Source: Actinomycetota bacterium
Lineage (GTDB): Bacteria; Actinomycetota; Actinomycetes; Streptosporangiales; Streptosporangiaceae
Direction: 5' to 3'
DNA length: 5,889 nt
Assembly: GCA_003168295.1 (NCBI GenBank)
Contig: PMST01000629.1
Coordinates: 1-5,889, forward strand
The stretch's first letter is position 1, and the number at the start of each line of letters is the position of its first letter. The notes beneath the pieces were generated by a model, which did not search any database, was not told the origin of the DNA, and worked only from the letters and a program-made list of their open reading frames with translations. This document shows positions 1 to 5,889 of the stretch, piece after piece. Position numbers and translations under genes: made by a program.

Positions 1-339
1 GACCAGTTGCCGAGGATCAAGGACGTGACCCGCTCGCTGGCGGTGAACCCGGACACGGTGATGAAGGCCTACCGCGAGCTGGAGTTGCGCGGCATCGCGG
101 CCGGCCGCCCCGGCGTCGGCACGTTCATCACGCAGGCACCAGCCGTCGTCGGCCTCAAGCAGATGGCCGCGCTGCAGAAGAAGCTCACCACGTGGCTGGC
201 CGAGGCGGCCGAGAACGGCGTGGACGAGCTCGGCATGAAGGCGCTGTTCACCGCGGCACTGCGGGATTTTAGCGGCGGGGGCGCCGCGTCCCGCCTTCCC
301 GGCCGCGCCGGAGCGCGCCGGGAAGGCGGGGCGGCATGA
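1..339 (+). CDS. GntR-family (YtrA-like) transcriptional regulator, 5' end missing
   Basis: The frame is open from the first base, so the gene begins upstream; 112 codons and a TGA stop are present. The first ~45 residues are the second half of a GntR winged helix-turn-helix: a helix starting LPRIKDVTRSLAV, the recognition helix NPDTVMKAYRELE, and the wing GRPGVGTFIT. After it comes only a short helical stretch (about residues 53-90) and no large effector domain, which is the layout of the small YtrA subfamily, usually around 125 residues. About 20-30 N-terminal residues are therefore probably missing. YtrA-type proteins typically repress their own operon with adjacent ABC transporter genes, and an ATPase gene follows directly with a 4-bp ATGA overlap. 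The last ~20 residues are low-complexity Gly/Ala/Arg, encoded largely by a strong inverted repeat (287-333). The family call is secure; ligand and target are inferred only from context. Confidence 0.9.
   Translation, partial: DQLPRIKDVTRSLAVNPDTVMKAYRELELRGIAAGRPGVGTFITQAPAVVGLKQMAALQKKLTTWLAEAAENGVDELGMKALFTAALRDFSGGGAASRLPGRAGARREGGAA
287..333 (+). promoter_or_regulatory. Large RNA hairpin over the ATPase ribosome-binding region
   Basis: The arms CCCGCCTTCCCGG (290-302) and CCGGGAAGGCGGG (318-330) are perfectly complementary over 13 bp. They extend outward by a T289-G331 wobble and two more pairs (288/332, 287/333). Inside, after bulged C303, 304-308 pair with 313-317 around the tetraloop CGGA. 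The structure ends 2 nt before the ATG at 336. The only purine-rich Shine-Dalgarno candidate for the ATPase (GGGAAGG, 320-326) is buried in its 3' arm. The inferred role is translational coupling: ribosomes finishing the GntR frame, which stops at 339, would open the stem and expose the downstream start. There is no U-tract, so a conventional intrinsic terminator is less likely. The base pairing is seen directly; the function is inference. Confidence 0.6.
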
Positions 340-1211
340 ACGTCATCCAGACGGACGGCCTCGGCCAGCGTTACCGGCAGACCTGGGCCCTGCGAGACTG
401 CCGTCTCACCGTTCCGGCCGGCCACGTGGCTGCCCTGGTCGGACACAATGGCGCGGGCAAGACCACCCTGCTGCGCATCCTGGCTGGTGTAGTGACCCCG
501 ACGGCGGGCACGGCCACCGTACTTGGCTATACACCTGGCAGCCAGCAGGCCCGCGACGCGGTGTCCGCCGTCGACCAGACGGTGCCGCTCTACCGCCACC
601 TGCGGGTCCGCGACCAGGTCGCCGCCGCACGGGAACTCAACGACCAGTGGGACACCGATCTCGCCGTACAACGCCTGTCCTCGTTGAACCTGATGACGTC
701 CGGCAAGGTCGGCAAGCTCTCGGGCGGCCAGCAAGCCCAGCTCGCGCTCACCCTCGCCCTCGCCCGCCGCCCCCGGCTGCTGTTGCTGGACGAGCCGCTG
801 GCCAGCCTGGACCCCCTGGCCCGGCAGGAGGTGCTGGGCTGGCTGATGACCTGCGTGGCCGAGGACGGCCTGTCCGTCGTGTTCTCCTCGCACGTCATCA
901 CGGAACTCGAACGCGTCGCCACGTACCTGGTGGTGCTGTCCCAGGGACAGGTCCAGGTCGCCGCGACGGTCGACAGCCTGCTCGACTCGCATCTGGCGCT
1001 AACCGGCCCGGCCGCCGACGCCGGCCAGCTGGCCGGCCAGGTGCCCGTCATTACCGCCCAGCGGACCGGGCGCCAGGCCCAGGTGCTGGCCAGGACCGAC
1101 ACGGCGCCGCCCGGCTGGGCGGCCCGGCCGGTCACGATGGAGGAACTCGTGCTCGGTTACCTGCGGGAGCCGGCCGCCCGCGTGCTGCCCCCACTGGAGG
1201 CGGCGCGATGA
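336..1211 (+). CDS. ABC transporter ATP-binding protein
   Basis: This 291-residue cytoplasmic ATPase should power the permease encoded immediately downstream. All nucleotide-binding motifs are intact: Walker A GHNGAGKTT (residues 36-44), Q-loop Gln81, signature LSGGQ (128-132), Walker B LLLLDEP (148-154) with catalytic Glu153, D-loop SLD (157-159) and H-loop His186. The NBD fills about residues 1-205. The remaining ~85 residues form the short accessory C-terminal region common in single-NBD ATPases of drug or peptide export type. The start is set by the ATGA overlap with the GntR stop, and the stop overlaps the permease ATG in the same way (1208-1211). The order GntR-ATPase-permease is a common actinobacterial arrangement. 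Substrate and direction of transport cannot be read from the sequence, although export is usual for YtrA-linked systems. An 18-bp palindrome sits inside the C-terminal coding part (1020-1037). Confidence 0.93.
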   Translation: MNVIQTDGLGQRYRQTWALRDCRLTVPAGHVAALVGHNGAGKTTLLRILAGVVTPTAGTATVLGYTPGSQQARDAVSAVDQTVPLYRHLRVRDQVAAARELNDQWDTDLAVQRLSSLNLMTSGKVGKLSGGQQAQLALTLALARRPRLLLLDEPLASLDPLARQEVLGWLMTCVAEDGLSVVFSSHVITELERVATYLVVLSQGQVQVAATVDSLLDSHLALTGPAADAGQLAGQVPVITAQRTGRQAQVLARTDTAPPGWAARPVTMEELVLGYLREPAARVLPPLEAAR

Positions 1212-2239
1212 CCGCGCGGGCCATCAAGGCGATCAGTGTGCCGAGGATGGCGCGGGTCACCTGGTACAAGCACCGGGCCTCGGTACTCGGAATCCCCGGC
1301 ATGTTCCTGCTGGCCGCCGCGCTGCTAGTCCTTGACAGCCTGCTGCAGCGGCACTGGATCAGCTCGCATCACTTCACCTACTGCCTGGCCTACGGGGACA
1401 ACTCCACCTCGAGCCGGTGCCTGACCCAGGACGCGCCGTACCAGCTGGGGGTTTTCGCGGAGTTCGTCAACTACTGGCGGACGGAAGGCACCGTGCTGGC
1501 GGTATTCCTGCTGGCCGCGGCGGCAGGCTTGTTCGCCGGCGTGCCGTGGGTGGCCCGCGAGTTCGAGGGCGGCGGCTTCCGGTTCACCTGGACCCAGAGC
1601 GTCAGTCCGCGTCGCTGGCTGCTCGGCACGTTCGGACCACTCACCCTGCTCGCCGCGGCAACCGCCGTGATCTGCGGTGTCGCCGCGCACTGGTGGTTCC
1701 AGGTGGCGCAGTTCCGGCTTGACGGCGGAACCACCCCGTGGGGCTGGGAATCAATCGAAATGACCCCGCTGTCCATGGTGAGCTGGACGCTGCTGGCGAT
1801 GGCGCTCGCCCTGCTGCTCGGCGTGACGATCCGCCGCGTGCTGCCGGCCATGATCACTTTCGCCGTGATCTTCGGCGGGTGCCTGGTGCTCGCCCGGACC
1901 TGGCTGTCCACGTTCCTGTTCAGCGTCGGCGACATCCCGTTGCGGGTCAACTACGTCAACCCCGTGTACCCCAGCGGCAGCTACGTCGCGCAGACGTGGT
2001 TCGCCCGTCCGGGCGGCCCCAAGCTCAGCCCGATGACCCTGTACGCGCAGCTGCTCAACGTCCCGCAGCCGCAGCAGGCTCGCTGGCTCGCGCAGCATCA
2101 TCTCACCGAATGGATCGCCTACCAGCCGCACAGTCACCTGGTCTGGCTCGCGCTCGCCCGCAACGGCATCCTCGTCGCGGTCGCCGCCCTCGCCGTCCTC
2201 GCCTCGGTCTGGTGGCTCCGCAAGCACCCGGCCGAATAG
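1208..2239 (+). CDS. ABC transporter permease, six membrane segments
   Basis: The protein has 343 residues with the start at the ATGA overlap with the ATPase gene; the same frame is open further upstream, but that part lies antisense-free inside the ATPase gene and is a reading-frame shadow. Hydrophobic segments lie at about 27-47, 93-115, 137-162, 189-208, 213-239 and 311-336. Basic residues in the N-terminus (RVTWYKHR), after TM4 (Arg209-Arg210) and at the C-terminus (RKH) favour both ends inside. The loop between TM2 and TM3 contains AREFEGGGFRFTWTQSVSPRRW-type residues (about 116-137). I recognise this stretch from actinobacterial permeases paired with GntR/ATPase genes; it is a likely coupling segment to the ATPase. 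Two large external loops stand out: residues 48-92 with Cys59 and Cys71, which could form a disulfide, and 240-310. With one permease and one ATPase gene, the transporter is probably a dimer of each. Substrate unknown. Confidence 0.85.
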   Translation: MTARAIKAISVPRMARVTWYKHRASVLGIPGMFLLAAALLVLDSLLQRHWISSHHFTYCLAYGDNSTSSRCLTQDAPYQLGVFAEFVNYWRTEGTVLAVFLLAAAAGLFAGVPWVAREFEGGGFRFTWTQSVSPRRWLLGTFGPLTLLAAATAVICGVAAHWWFQVAQFRLDGGTTPWGWESIEMTPLSMVSWTLLAMALALLLGVTIRRVLPAMITFAVIFGGCLVLARTWLSTFLFSVGDIPLRVNYVNPVYPSGSYVAQTWFARPGGPKLSPMTLYAQLLNVPQPQQARWLAQHHLTEWIAYQPHSHLVWLALARNGILVAVAALAVLASVWWLRKHPAE

Positions 2240-2250: not shown

Positions 2251-3045
2251 TCAGCCCAGCAGGTCGCCGAGTTCGGTCGCGACGCTCTGCAGGGCGGTCG
2301 CGAACCGGTTCTTGGCCGCGGCCGTCATGCGGCTCACCGGAACGGAGACGTTGATGGCGTAGCGCGCGTCGCCGTGAGCCGGGACCGGAACAGCCACCGA
2401 CGCCACGCCGTCCTCGTTCTCCTCGGCGCTGGTCGCGTAGCCGCGCCGCCGGATCCGGTCCAGGTCCACTTCGAGTTCCGTGCGTGTCGCGATGGAGTTC
2501 TTGGTCATCGTGTCGAGCCGCTCATCGGGGAACAGCTTGTGCAGTTCCTCGGCGGAGAGCTCGCTGAGCATCGCTTTGCCCGTCGAGGTGCAGTTGGCCG
2601 GCATCACCTGGCCGGCCCGCGATATGACGCGTACCGTCTGGGTCCCCTCGATCGAGTCGATGAAGTTGACCGTCCGGCCTTCCAGGCGGCCCAGGGTGAT
2701 GGTCTCGTTGAGATCGACGTTGAGCTTCTCGAGCACCGGGCGGGCCCGCGCCCGGGCGTCGCTGCGCCGGTTGATCGAGGCAGCGATAACGGTCAGGGCC
2801 ACCCCAGGAGCGTAGGCCTTGGTCGCCGGATCCTGCCGGACGAACCCGCGGTACTGCAGCATGGCCAGCAGCCGGTGCGCGGTCGAAGCGGCGACGCCGA
2901 GGTAGCCGCTGGCATCGGTGAGCCGGACGACCGGTTGCTCGGAGAACAGCAGCAGCAGCTTTAGGGCGTTGTCTACCGACTCGATCGGATACTGCGGGGG
3001 AGTCGCGGAGTCCGGACCCGCCGCCCGGGTCCTAGGCTTCGCCAT
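2251..3045 (-). CDS. IclR-family transcriptional regulator
   Basis: The 264-residue length is typical for the family. The N-terminal winged helix-turn-helix (about 20-80) begins IESVDNALKLLLLFSE, with the recognition helix in VAASTAHRLLAML (51-63) and the wing ending TKAYAPG. The C-terminal IclR effector-binding domain (about 85-262) shows the family landmarks CTSTGKAMLSEL (151-162) and GYATSAEENEDGVASVAVP (202-220). IclR proteins bind small, often aromatic, acids and repress or activate nearby catabolic genes. Here the gene lies downstream of an SDR on the same strand (79-bp gap) and beside a divergent ring-hydroxylating oxygenase. It probably controls those genes and, if co-transcribed with the SDR, itself. 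The ATG at 3043-3045 has no good Shine-Dalgarno; TAGGCT 6 nt before it could be a -10 for a leaderless transcript, but no -35 matches. Family secure; target and ligand inferred. Confidence 0.95.
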   Translation of the reverse strand: MAKPRTRAAGPDSATPPQYPIESVDNALKLLLLFSEQPVVRLTDASGYLGVAASTAHRLLAMLQYRGFVRQDPATKAYAPGVALTVIAASINRRSDARARARPVLEKLNVDLNETITLGRLEGRTVNFIDSIEGTQTVRVISRAGQVMPANCTSTGKAMLSELSAEELHKLFPDERLDTMTKNSIATRTELEVDLDRIRRRGYATSAEENEDGVASVAVPVPAHGDARYAINVSVPVSRMTAAAKNRFATALQSVATELGDLLG

Positions 3046-3124: not shown

Positions 3125-3895
3125 TTAGCTGGCGAGCTTGCCGCCGTCGATCACCAGCACCTGACCGGTCATGTAGGACGCCTCGTCGCTGGCCACGAAC
3201 AGCACCGCGTTGGCGATGTCGCTCGGCTCACCATGGCGGCCGACGTGGATCCGCTGCATCATCGGGCCCACGTGGTCAGGGTTGGCGAAGACCGGCGCGG
3301 TCGCCGGGGTGTTGATCAGGCCTGGACTGACGGCATTGCAGCGGATCCCGGACGGACCGTAGTCGACGGCGATCGAGCGGGTCAGCGCCAGCACGCCGCC
3401 CTTCGCCGCGGTGTAGGCGGCGAAGGCCGGACCAGAGGCATGAGCTGCCGTGGAGGTCGTGTTGACGATGACGCCGCCGCCGGCCGCGGTCATCTGCGGG
3501 ATCGCGAACTTGCAGCCGAGGAAGACACCGGTCAGCGTCACGGCGATGGTCCTGTTCCACTGCTCGAGCGTGGTCTGGGTCAGCGTGGTGCTCAGCGGCG
3601 CCCAGTACGCGTTGTTGTGCAGCACGTCCAGCCGGCCGTATGCCGCTATCGTCTCGGTGATCATCGATTCGACCGCGGCCGGATCCGATACGTCAGTCAC
3701 CGAGTCCCTGGCGTCGCCGCCCTCGGCCTGGATCAGCGAGACGGTGTGCTCGGCCCCCTCGGCGTCGATGTCGGCGACGACGACACGGCCTCCTTCGCGA
3801 GCGAACTGAACGGCCGTCTGCCGGCCGATGCCGGACCCGGCGCCGGTGACGATGACCGCCCTGCCCTCGAACCTCGTGCCGCCGCGTTCACCCAT
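3125..3895 (-). CDS. Short-chain dehydrogenase/reductase (SDR), candidate dihydrodiol or alcohol dehydrogenase
   Basis: The protein is a 256-residue classical SDR, a soluble NAD(P)-dependent oxidoreductase. The Rossmann glycine motif TGAGSGIG spans 17-24. Asp42 at the end of the second strand (VVVADID) favours NAD over NADP. Catalytic Ser148 (VNTTS) and Tyr161/Lys165 (YTAAK) are present, followed by the PG motif (191-192) and the C-terminal TGQVLVIDGG. Two usual residues differ: NNAG is NNAY (Tyr97), and the Asn of the catalytic tetrad (usual NLTG) is Thr120 in VTLTG. The frame is open up to 4174, but the ATG at 3893-3895 is chosen because it gives the normal SDR N-terminus, 16 residues before the glycine motif; extra codons upstream would cross the divergent promoter region. 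Its Shine-Dalgarno is weak (GGCGGCGGA). Divergent pairing with a ring-hydroxylating dioxygenase suggests oxidation of the cis-diol or a related alcohol. This is inference; the substrate is not visible. Confidence 0.9.
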   Translation of the reverse strand: MGERGGTRFEGRAVIVTGAGSGIGRQTAVQFAREGGRVVVADIDAEGAEHTVSLIQAEGGDARDSVTDVSDPAAVESMITETIAAYGRLDVLHNNAYWAPLSTTLTQTTLEQWNRTIAVTLTGVFLGCKFAIPQMTAAGGGVIVNTTSTAAHASGPAFAAYTAAKGGVLALTRSIAVDYGPSGIRCNAVSPGLINTPATAPVFANPDHVGPMMQRIHVGRHGEPSDIANAVLFVASDEASYMTGQVLVIDGGKLAS

Positions 3896-3918: not shown

Positions 3919-3943
3919 TTCTGCTAGGCAGATAGTGATTCTG
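3919..3943 (-). promoter_or_regulatory. Predicted IclR-type operator A, SDR side
   Basis: On the minus strand this reads CAGAA-N5-ATCTG-N5-CAGAA, three five-base half-sites centred at 3941, 3931 and 3921, exactly 10 bp apart. On the plus strand, TCTGC-TAG-GCAGA (3920-3932) is a perfect palindrome within it. It ends 23 nt before the SDR start and lies just downstream of a plausible -10. The same arrangement recurs in the opposite direction at 4033-4057. Binding by the adjacent IclR protein is inferred. Confidence 0.5.
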
Positions 3944-3944
3944 T

Positions 3945-3973
3945 ACAGTAACCGCCGCCAGCGGCCCCGGCAA
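3945..3973 (-). promoter_or_regulatory. Possible SDR promoter
   Basis: Minus-strand TTGCCG (3968-3973) and TACTGT (3945-3950) are separated by 17 bp and resemble -35 and -10 boxes of a housekeeping sigma factor. The predicted transcription start (about 3938) falls inside operator A, so a bound regulator would be expected to block initiation. Box matches are only partial. Confidence 0.35.
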
Positions 3974-4014
3974 GATGCGTGCCGGACTTTCCCCGCGACC
4001 GTGACCACCGGCGC

Positions 4015-4044
4015 TAGACTTTTTCTTTAAATCAGAAATAAGTT
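4015..4044 (+). promoter_or_regulatory. Possible dioxygenase promoter in a local A+T-rich patch
   Basis: TAGACT (4015-4020) and TAAGTT (4039-4044), 18 bp apart, are partial matches to -35 and -10 boxes. They lie in the only clearly A+T-rich stretch of the window (about 4015-4055). The -10 overlaps operator B. Alternative -10 boxes are TATACG (4049-4054) and TATGTT (4065-4070); the exact start cannot be decided by eye. Confidence 0.35.
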
Positions 4045-4057
4045 CTGATATACGGAA
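4033..4057 (+). promoter_or_regulatory. Predicted IclR-type operator B, dioxygenase side
   Basis: The sequence is CAGAA-N5-TTCTG-N5-CGGAA with half-site centres at 4035, 4045 and 4055, exactly 10 bp apart. The first two half-sites form a perfect 7-bp-arm palindrome, ATCAGAA-N5-TTCTGAT (4031-4049). The second and third also form GTTC-N9-GAAC (4042-4058). It ends 28 nt before the dioxygenase alpha ATG and mirrors operator A. The layout resembles the three-repeat site known for PcaU of the IclR family. Protein binding is inferred. Confidence 0.55.
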
Positions 4058-4085: not shown

Positions 4086-5447
4086 ATGACAGCCAACGGT
4101 GCCGGCGGCTCAGCCGAGGCCGCCGTGGCCGGCATTGTCGGCAATGTCCGCAACGGGATGATCCCGGCGCACATCTACAACGACCGTGCTGTCTTCGAAC
4201 TGGAAGCCGAGAGAGTCTTCGGGCGGTCCTGGATATTTGCCGGCCATGAGTCGGAGATCCCGGCGCCCGGCGATTATGTCGTCCGGCGCGTGCTCAAGGA
4301 TTCATTCATCGTGGTCAGGGACGAAGCGGGCCAGGTCCGGGCTCATTTCAACATGTGCCTGCACCGGGGCATGCAGGTGTGCCGGGCCGAGATGGGCAAT
4401 GCGTCGCACTTTCGCTGCCCGTATCACGGCTGGTCCTACCGCAACGACGGCCGGCTTGTCGGGCTGCCGTTCCACCAGGACGCCTACGGCGGCGAGGCGG
4501 GCTTCCGGCGCAAGAGCCAGCGCCTGCTGCCGGCCCCGAAGCTGGACACCTACAACGGGCTCATTTTCATCTGCCTGGATCCCGATGCCGAACCGCTGCC
4601 GGATTTCCTCGGCGACTTCCGCTTCTACCTGGACTACTACACCAAGCAGAGCGCGGCCGGGATCGAGTTGCGCGGCCCGCAGCGCTGGCGGATCAAGGCC
4701 AACTGGAAGATCGGCGCCGAGAACTTCGCCGGCGACATGTACCACACGCCGCAAACGCATGCCAGCGTGGTGGAGATCGGGCTGTTCCGGGAGCCGAGGG
4801 CCGAGAAGCGCAAGGACGGTGCCACCTACTGGACCGGCAGCGCCGGCGGCACCACGTACAAGCTGCCGCCGGGAGGCTTTGACGAGCGGATGCGCTATGT
4901 CGGCTACCCCGACCAGATGATCGAGCAGATGAAGCAGTCCTGGTCGGCCGACCAGCAGCGGGTCATCGGCGCGGACGGCTTCATGATCTCCGCCGCCTCG
5001 TTGTACCCGAACATGAGCTTCGTGCACAACTGGCCGCGCGTTGGCACGTCCGAGGACGTTCTCCCGTTCATCTCGATCCGGCAGTGGCAGCCGGTGAGCG
5101 AGAACGAGACCGAGGTGCTGTCCTGGTTCGCGGTCGACGCCGGCGCGCCGGAGGAGTTCAAGAAGCTGTCCTATAAGGCCTACCTGATGTGCTTCGGCAT
5201 CTCCGGCATGTTCGAGCAGGACGACGTCGAGAACTGGGTATCGCTGACCAGCACGGCGGCCGGCTCACTGGCCAGGCGGCTGCTGCTCAACAGCCGGATG
5301 GGCTTGCTGGAGGACGGCACGGAGGTCGTCACCGCCCTTTCCGCCGCGCAGTTCGCCGGCCCCGGCAGTGCCCGGGTCGGCTACAGCGAGCACAACCAGC
5401 GCGCGCTGCTGAACCGGTGGGCCAGCGACATGGAGGTGCCGGCATGA
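4086..5447 (+). CDS. Rieske ring-hydroxylating dioxygenase, alpha (large) subunit
   Basis: This 453-residue protein has the usual length and both metal centres of the catalytic subunit of Rieske non-heme iron oxygenases, which add both atoms of O2 to an aromatic ring to form a cis-dihydrodiol. The N-terminal Rieske domain has Cys91-x-His93-x17-Cys111-x2-His114, ligands of the [2Fe-2S] cluster. The catalytic domain has ENFAGDMYHTPQTH, giving His220 and His225 as iron ligands and Asp217 as the bridge between the centres. The third ligand is expected in FEQDDVENW (Asp379 or Asp380). Nothing looks truncated. The stop overlaps the beta-subunit ATG (ATGA, 5444-5447), fitting an alpha/beta hexamer. 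The enzyme needs electrons from a ferredoxin and reductase not present here. Substrate class cannot be assigned with confidence; benzoate-, phenylpropionate- or biphenyl-type families share these motifs. Confidence 0.96.
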   Translation: MTANGAGGSAEAAVAGIVGNVRNGMIPAHIYNDRAVFELEAERVFGRSWIFAGHESEIPAPGDYVVRRVLKDSFIVVRDEAGQVRAHFNMCLHRGMQVCRAEMGNASHFRCPYHGWSYRNDGRLVGLPFHQDAYGGEAGFRRKSQRLLPAPKLDTYNGLIFICLDPDAEPLPDFLGDFRFYLDYYTKQSAAGIELRGPQRWRIKANWKIGAENFAGDMYHTPQTHASVVEIGLFREPRAEKRKDGATYWTGSAGGTTYKLPPGGFDERMRYVGYPDQMIEQMKQSWSADQQRVIGADGFMISAASLYPNMSFVHNWPRVGTSEDVLPFISIRQWQPVSENETEVLSWFAVDAGAPEEFKKLSYKAYLMCFGISGMFEQDDVENWVSLTSTAAGSLARRLLLNSRMGLLEDGTEVVTALSAAQFAGPGSARVGYSEHNQRALLNRWASDMEVPA

Positions 5448-5889
5448 CCAGCCGGGAAGCGGGCCACGCGGTCCTGGGCGGATCGGCGCCGGCGCAGCAG
5501 CGGACGGGCCGGCCGCTGCCGTTTGGCGATGAGCGGCATTTGCAGGCCCACCAGTGGCTCGTGGATGAGGCCTACCTGCTCGACTCGCAGGAGTACGAGG
5601 CCTGGCTGGACCTGCTGACCGACGACATCCACTATCACATGCCCGTCAGGGTGACCACGGCGCTCGGCGCCGGCTTCGACACCGCCCCGGGCATGGCGCA
5701 CTTCGACGAGGACAAGTACTCGCTGTCCCGGCGGGTCGCGCGGTTCATGACCGAGCATGCCTGGACCGAGGACCCGCCGTCGCGGCAGCGTCATTTCGTC
5801 ACGAACGTAAGGACATTCGCGACCCAGGACGCGGATCACATCGTCGCCGAGTCGGCGGTGCTGCTGTTCCGCAGCCGGGGCGACGTCAA
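5444..5889 (+). CDS. Ring-hydroxylating dioxygenase, beta (small) subunit, 3' end missing
   Basis: From the ATG overlapping the alpha stop, the frame is open for 148 codons to the window end. Family features are DEAYLLDSQEYEAWLDLLTDD followed by IHYHMPV (41-68), HFDEDKYSLSRRVARF (86-101), and PPSRQRHFVTNV (111-122), the most recognisable stretch of ring-hydroxylating beta subunits. These have an NTF2-like fold, carry no metal centre and stabilise the alpha3beta3 oxygenase, sometimes influencing substrate range. The family is usually about 160-190 residues, so roughly 20-40 residues are likely missing. The first ~30 residues are a Gly/Ala/Gln-rich extension before the conserved core. The 4-bp overlap implies coupled, near-stoichiometric translation with alpha. 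Confidence 0.93.
   Translation, partial: MTSREAGHAVLGGSAPAQQRTGRPLPFGDERHLQAHQWLVDEAYLLDSQEYEAWLDLLTDDIHYHMPVRVTTALGAGFDTAPGMAHFDEDKYSLSRRVARFMTEHAWTEDPPSRQRHFVTNVRTFATQDADHIVAESAVLLFRSRGDV

Follow-up and report, generated by a model that had tools for sequence, protein, structure and literature searches.

A conserved lattice of alternating CAGA/TCTG boxes as the predicted operator of an IclR-family regulator in actinobacterial phthalate-type gene clusters

The locus and its genes

Which protein controls a pair of divergent catabolic genes, and through which sites, is the question raised by a stretch of 5,889 nucleotides of high-GC DNA of actinobacterial type (the window), in which an SDR-family dehydrogenase gene and a ring-hydroxylating dioxygenase operon face away from each other across a 190-bp intergenic region. 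An earlier note on this DNA had read two triple repeats in that region as operators of the IclR-family regulator encoded behind the SDR gene. The regulator, of 264 amino acids (2251-3045, minus strand), carries both domains that define its family, with 50.7 bits to PF09339 (HTH_IclR; cut-off 22) and 141 bits to PF01614 (IclR_C; cut-off 24), and at 114.1 bits it falls short of the cut-off of 284.75 for TIGR02431, the model of the PcaU/PcaR/PobR subfamily. It is 58-59% identical to the IclR proteins of the Arthrobacter keyseri 12B and RHA1 clusters and 79-98% identical to metagenome relatives. The SDR gene (3125-3895, minus strand; Pfam adh_short) is the first gene of the left arm. The right arm begins with the alpha subunit of a Rieske ring-hydroxylating dioxygenase (4086-5447, plus strand), phthalate 3,4-dioxygenase-like by its Pfam match and the names of its relatives, followed by the beta subunit (5444-5889, plus strand; Pfam Ring_hydroxyl_B), which runs off the window. 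At the far left, a GntR-like regulator fragment, an ABC ATPase and a hydrophobic-looking protein without a Pfam match (1-2239, plus strand) apparently form an unrelated operon.

The alpha subunit is 75.3% identical to the plasmid enzymes of Rhodococcus jostii RHA1 and Rhodococcus sp. DK17 and 76.5% identical to that of A. keyseri 12B, which we take to be the pad, oph and pht phthalate enzymes; their database records say only ring-hydroxylating or Rieske protein. Orthologous alpha and beta subunits together with an IclR gene, the make-up of the pht, pad and oph clusters, are present in the window. Among the 120 alpha relatives listed, four bear the name phthalate dioxygenase (P0126, P0136, P0196 and P0209; 78-89% identical), and the other named relatives are mostly phenylpropionate dioxygenase-like or plain Rieske proteins. 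No NCBIfam model reaches its cut-off with the alpha subunit, and the beta subunit reaches that of one subfamily model, 3-phenylpropionate/cinnamic acid dioxygenase beta. Of 360 genome loci that encode the alpha subunit, the best 80 (74-81% identity) make up the comparison set for this study. Within the locus DNA examined, SDR homologs at 60-65% identity occur in just four of the 80 (L010, L031, L038 and L078), and the SDR protein of the window is merely 25% identical to a dihydrodiol dehydrogenase-like protein of RHA1. The SDR relative sits between ABC ATPase-like genes and the dioxygenase in L038 and L078.

Predicted operators in the intergenic region

The predicted right-arm operator (4023-4057, plus strand) reads TTCTT-N5-CAGAA-N5-TTCTG-N5-CGGAA, with boxes starting at 4023, 4033, 4043 and 4053, and was assigned from sequence, matrix score and conservation. 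Its left-arm counterpart (3919-3953, minus strand), predicted from sequence and matrix score, consists of CAGAA (3943-3939), ATCTG (3933-3929) and CAGAA (3923-3919), preceded by a degenerate GGTTA (3953-3949). Both triple repeats of the earlier note are there letter for letter, as TTCTGCTAGGCAGATAGTGATTCTG on the plus strand at 3919-3943 (CAGAA-N5-ATCTG-N5-CAGAA when read on the minus strand) and as CAGAAATAAGTTCTGATATACGGAA on the plus strand at 4033-4057, and its distances are correct, namely 23 nt to the SDR ATG (3895), 28 nt to the dioxygenase ATG (4086) and 79 bp between the SDR and IclR genes. Its boxes stand, but not their number or their core: in place of three half-sites built on CAGAA, the unit comprises four alternating boxes in the order R-F-R-F, with the core CAGA/TCTG and box starts 10 bp apart, the fourth right-arm box (TTCTT, 4023-4027) having been overlooked. 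The two copies do point in opposite directions, as had been claimed, but the lattice itself is near-palindromic, so that their orientation means little.

At least three alternating boxes about one turn apart are found on both arms (4023, 4033, 4043 and 4053 on the right; 3943, 3933 and 3923 on the left), and because the left arm has three good boxes, tandem palindromes occur on the right arm only. The box registers of the two lattices are 104 bp, or about 9.9 turns, apart, and as a matter of speculation one tetramer could bridge them. A weight matrix that started from the lattice and was refined with 65 distinct sites, from which the window, L038, L052, L074 and L078 were left out, scores the left arm at 22.0 on the minus strand and the right arm at 32.1; most of its information lies in the boxes and far less in the spacers. 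Several features count against reading these sites as operators, in that the left arm is without a recognisable fourth box, the last of the four right-arm boxes is CGGAA, and the -35 elements of the window are imperfect. None of 2000 dinucleotide shuffles of the 190-bp region held two triple matches with up to 2 mismatches, and the best single triple match, with 3 mismatches, appeared in 5 of the 2000. The pattern used for these shuffles was taken from the window sites themselves, and it is therefore conservation that provides an independent test.

Conservation upstream of the dioxygenase

For each of the 80 loci, the sequence preceding a fixed alpha residue was taken, over at most 330 bp, and a lattice was called from AGA/TCT cores in the order R-F-R-F with at most one mismatch in the 12 core bases. 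At the 10-bp spacing such a lattice is found in 66 of the 80 loci (55 of 66 once near-duplicates are removed), as against none at 6-9, 11 and 13-15 bp and three at 12 bp, so that the 10-bp spacing of half-sites noted earlier proves to be conserved among orthologous intergenic regions (0-3 loci at the nine other spacings). Exact F-R-F triples behave alike, with 61 of 80 loci at 10 bp and 0-2 at the remaining spacings; when one mismatch is allowed, the contrast between spacings shrinks, with 73 of the 80 loci matching at 10 bp while 12 bp yields 23 and 8 bp yields 20. Two dyads come out on top when trinucleotide dyads are counted over 78 regions (77 loci and the window) with no motif set in advance, AGA-N7-TCT in 52 regions (2.0 expected) and TCT-N7-AGA in 63 (3.6 expected). 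In mononucleotide shuffles of 40 loci, none of 942,730 positions scores above 12 with the matrix, nor does any of 333,948 positions in coding stretches of alpha, beta, IclR and SDR homologs, where the maximum is 9.4.

The literal GAA-N5-TTC of the earlier reading matches in 16 of the 80 upstream regions, which at first seemed a refutation; the dyad count gave AGA/TCT as the core. At up to 1 mismatch in 12, the lattice upstream of alpha is absent from 14 of the 80 loci. L038 has a weaker lattice (19.7) before an ABC substrate-binding-like gene that lies upstream in the same direction, L052 has a three-box form elsewhere in the cluster (score 10.0), and no convincing lattice was found in L078, where the best score is 10.3. 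The IclR proteins of these three loci are 60-65% identical to that of the window and among the closest in the set; that of L002, at 63% identity, accompanies a strong lattice (30.7).

Linkage of the lattice to the IclR gene

That the neighbouring IclR gene travels with the lattice, as the regulatory reading would have it, was examined in 394 genomes of one class, by means of a strict pattern (TCTN6CAGAN7TCTGN5CAGA, which the window's own arms would not match) and a call of IclR orthologs at E <=1e-65 with up to 6 candidates scored per genome. Orthologs were found in 15 genomes, the centre genome included, and the strict lattice in seven, all of them among the 15 (Fisher p 2.3e-11, uncorrected for relatedness). 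Each of the seven strict lattices has an alpha homolog (at least 71%) within about 4 kb. In all 15 ortholog-bearing genomes the IclR gene has a lattice with a score above 15 no further than about 12 kb away; in the eight non-strict genomes the scores run from 15.1 to 43.1, with degenerate lattices in G341 (15.1), G001 (19.7), G070 and G224 (both 20.0) and G259 (23.2). At L143 in G070, the IclR ortholog is accompanied by ABC transporter-like and N-carbamoylsarcosine amidohydrolase-like genes and by a degenerate, overlapping lattice, and no dioxygenase alpha match is present in the 20 kb read.

A looser 12-base lattice occurs in 16 of 19 genomes chosen for holding loci, at 18 places. Sixteen of these places were examined, of which 14 lie beside alpha, one beside IclR and one (in G015) beside neither; the remaining two are both in G016, and one has the letters of the L003 array. 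IclR is the sole regulator among 10 recurrent gene families examined. Across 77 of 81 IclR sequences (those with at least 50% identity being kept and four below dropped), the HTH is strongly conserved, with the consensus LGVASSTAHRLLAMLQYRGFVRQD and a mean top-residue share of 0.83 versus 0.64 in the ligand domain.

A control pattern made by reading the lattice backward matched 3 of the 19 genomes and 9 of the 394, the latter more than the seven of the strict lattice. In those nine genomes, of 5.2-7.5 Mb, the matches have the look of another tandem site, mostly of the AGACT-N3-RGTCT type; IclR is also present in four (G068, G188, G198 and G233), with the matches on other contigs or more than 1 Mb away, and there is no IclR match in the other five. 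With those nine traced to what looks like a separate tandem site, the backward-read pattern cannot serve as a clean null, whereas the shuffles, the coding stretches and the spacing comparison can. The AGACT-N3-RGTCT-like tandem itself (L151-L159) has a repeat distance of ~20 bp, occurs once or twice per genome and looks like the site of a separate regulator.

Promoters and a proposed mechanism

Hexamers place a putative dioxygenase promoter at 4001-4029 on the plus strand, with a -35 of GTGACC (4001-4006), a 17-bp spacer and a -10 of TCTTTA (4024-4029) that overlaps box 1. From hexamers and spacing only, a putative SDR-IclR promoter can be drawn at 3945-3973 on the minus strand, with TTGCCG (3973-3968) and TACTGT (3950-3945) again 17 bp apart and the -10 next to a CAGAA box. 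The wider set agrees with this placement. Of 56 non-redundant array-bearing loci, 49 have TTGAC in the 45 bp that precede box 1 (counted without a null), and in 45 of these it is 20-29 bp away, with 20 cases at 22-23 bp and 13 at 27 bp; the GTGAC of the window stands at 22 bp. With TTGAC mostly at this distance, the -10 would fall on or beside box 1 and the lattice would run downstream, and the comparison supports the proposal of matching predicted operators in both arms over the likely -10/start region.

The reading we favour, with a probability of roughly 80%, is that the repeat clusters are operators of the adjacent IclR (2251-3045), a tetramer of which would block both promoters until phthalate or an early metabolite relieves the block. 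Alternating CAGA/TCTG boxes one helical turn apart would present themselves on a single face of the DNA, where a dimer of dimers could read each lattice. Each lattice probably overlies its own promoter between the -10 hexamer and a point near +25, and bound IclR would therefore exclude RNA polymerase at both divergent promoters, repressing the dioxygenase operon and, by autoregulation, SDR-iclR. Phthalate or an early metabolite would then release or reconfigure the protein, such that both arms are induced together; it is the gene content that narrows the likely ligand to these compounds.

Alternative explanations

PcaU and PobR act as activators, and the same protein on the same operators might likewise activate, or do both. 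According to PMC8222616, the PcaU site has three boxes of which the third is required for binding, and in PMC13040137 TphR is an activator that also keeps its own gene repressed. An activator's site would be expected further upstream, however, whereas the lattice begins at or beside the likely -10 and extends downstream, as judged from TTGAC in the 45 loci mentioned above; activation by this IclR is thus unlikely, though it is the best of the competing accounts considered in this section.

Binding of the lattice by a regulator encoded elsewhere, in place of the neighbouring IclR, is a good deal less probable still. It would be suggested by the 16 of 80 loci in which no IclR homolog lies within the locus DNA examined, yet several of these are on short contigs, and the eight that were tested, all lattice-bearing, come from genomes that in every case contain an IclR ortholog. 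Moreover, in the 379 class genomes without a detected ortholog (up to six candidates scored in each) the strict lattice is nowhere found, and L018, L020 and L147 have lattices close to iclR itself. As for chance, boxes of 5 bp are short and the intergenic patch looks A+T-richer than its surroundings, but neither the 2000 shuffles nor the spacing comparison (66 of 80 loci at 10 bp against 0-3 elsewhere) leaves this account any appreciable weight, and conservation across orthologous loci refutes it.

Comparison with known IclR systems

Alternating and tandem IclR sites have already been published, and the kind of operator is therefore known. Suvorova and Gelfand 2021 (PMC8222616) predict alternating sites of three boxes for 32 groups of IclR proteins and, for 94, tandem sites separated by 18-22 nt, with the printed consensuses GKTYCRYW3-4RYGRAMC or TGRAACAN1-2TGTTYCA. 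The present lattice shares with these the alternation of boxes, a distance between tandem palindrome centres of 20 (18-22 nt in theirs) and, for group 1 (W3) and group 2 (N1), a 10-bp step as counted from the printed consensuses; it differs in having four equally spaced boxes and in its core, CAGAR as opposed to YGRAM, one base apart when matrix and consensus are compared. The window thus offers, with good support, a further switch of a kind already described. No earlier description of a CAGA/TCTG lattice was found in the open-access literature searched, and the orthologous group may already be listed in the supplementary tables of PMC8222616. The likeness to PcaU of Acinetobacter drawn in the earlier note survives in geometry and fails in sequence. 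As given in PMC8222616, PcaU binds three boxes, two palindromic and the third a direct repeat required for binding; here too the boxes alternate at 10 bp and the third repeats the first, whereas the PcaU core is of the GTNCG/CGNAC type, the pathway genes are others, and a fourth box is present here. The model of the TtgV-operator tetramer (Lu et al. 2010, as cited in PMC8222616) likewise has a pair of dimers approaching the same side of the DNA at a distance of about two turns, the arrangement proposed here.

A close parallel is the pDK2 locus of DK17, presumably the oph operon, where an IclR gene lies beside the orthologous dioxygenase with a lattice (33.9) between them. The OphR site of DK17 listed in Table 1 of PMC8222616 (from Choi et al. 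2015) is CGCGTACGCG. The intergenic region of DK17 has a single copy (L083:7851-7860), upstream of the -35, and RHA1 (L082) has one at the same place; in the 330-bp stretches upstream of alpha, none of the 80 loci has an exact copy and three match with up to one mismatch. Thirty palindromes of equal half-composition, CGCGTACGCG included, match a mean of 2.8 loci (range 0-11), and CGCGTACGCG, being not above its peers, was rejected as a rival conserved site. In DK17 and RHA1, the published site is thus upstream of the -35 and is not conserved across the 80 loci, whereas the four-box lattice (L083:7894-7928 in DK17) is downstream of it and conserved. A tentative extension, more likely wrong than right, is that the actinobacterial phthalate regulator, with OphR of DK17 and the regulator of RHA1 included, truly acts through the lattice and not through the published OphR site, and that the IclR tetramer, since all neighbouring box pairs are equally spaced, can occupy alternative dimer registers between which a ligand would shift it from blocking to permissive or back.

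A wider set of lattices

RHA1 and DK17 each carry two lattices, the first separating alpha from the IclR gene and the other preceding ABC transporter genes, and DK17 has in addition a two-box copy, TTCTGCATAGCAGAG, that overlaps the iclR start as annotated. A. keyseri (L081) has lattices before alpha and about 400 bp ahead of an annotated ABC substrate-binding gene. PatDABC of RHA1 is an ABC importer of phthalic acid and monoalkyl phthalates, according to PMC10973024, and the transporter genes behind the lattice are probably patDABC. A lattice also lies between divergent iclR and an ABC substrate-binding lipoprotein-like gene, identified by eye, in L018. Divergent regions with two lattices, as in the window, are found in L048, L076, L022 (second lattice 17.5) and L059 (second lattice 14.3), and L147 has two between iclR and alpha (23.2 and 17.0). 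Extra lattices near or before other genes by phthalate-type clusters (L129:8017-8051; L130:8145-8179 and 15194-15228; L131:8157-8191 and 2551-2585) hint at what may be a larger regulon.

Implications

The lattice recurs before phthalate-type degradation genes in many actinobacteria, and it offers a testable definition of operator and regulon for actinobacterial phthalate breakdown in which two laboratory model strains are included. The published OphR site of DK17 is thereby called into question. A uniform lattice of four boxes is also a clean substrate for testing how an IclR tetramer chooses among alternative box pairs, and the promoter with its predicted operator is a possible part for phthalate biosensors.
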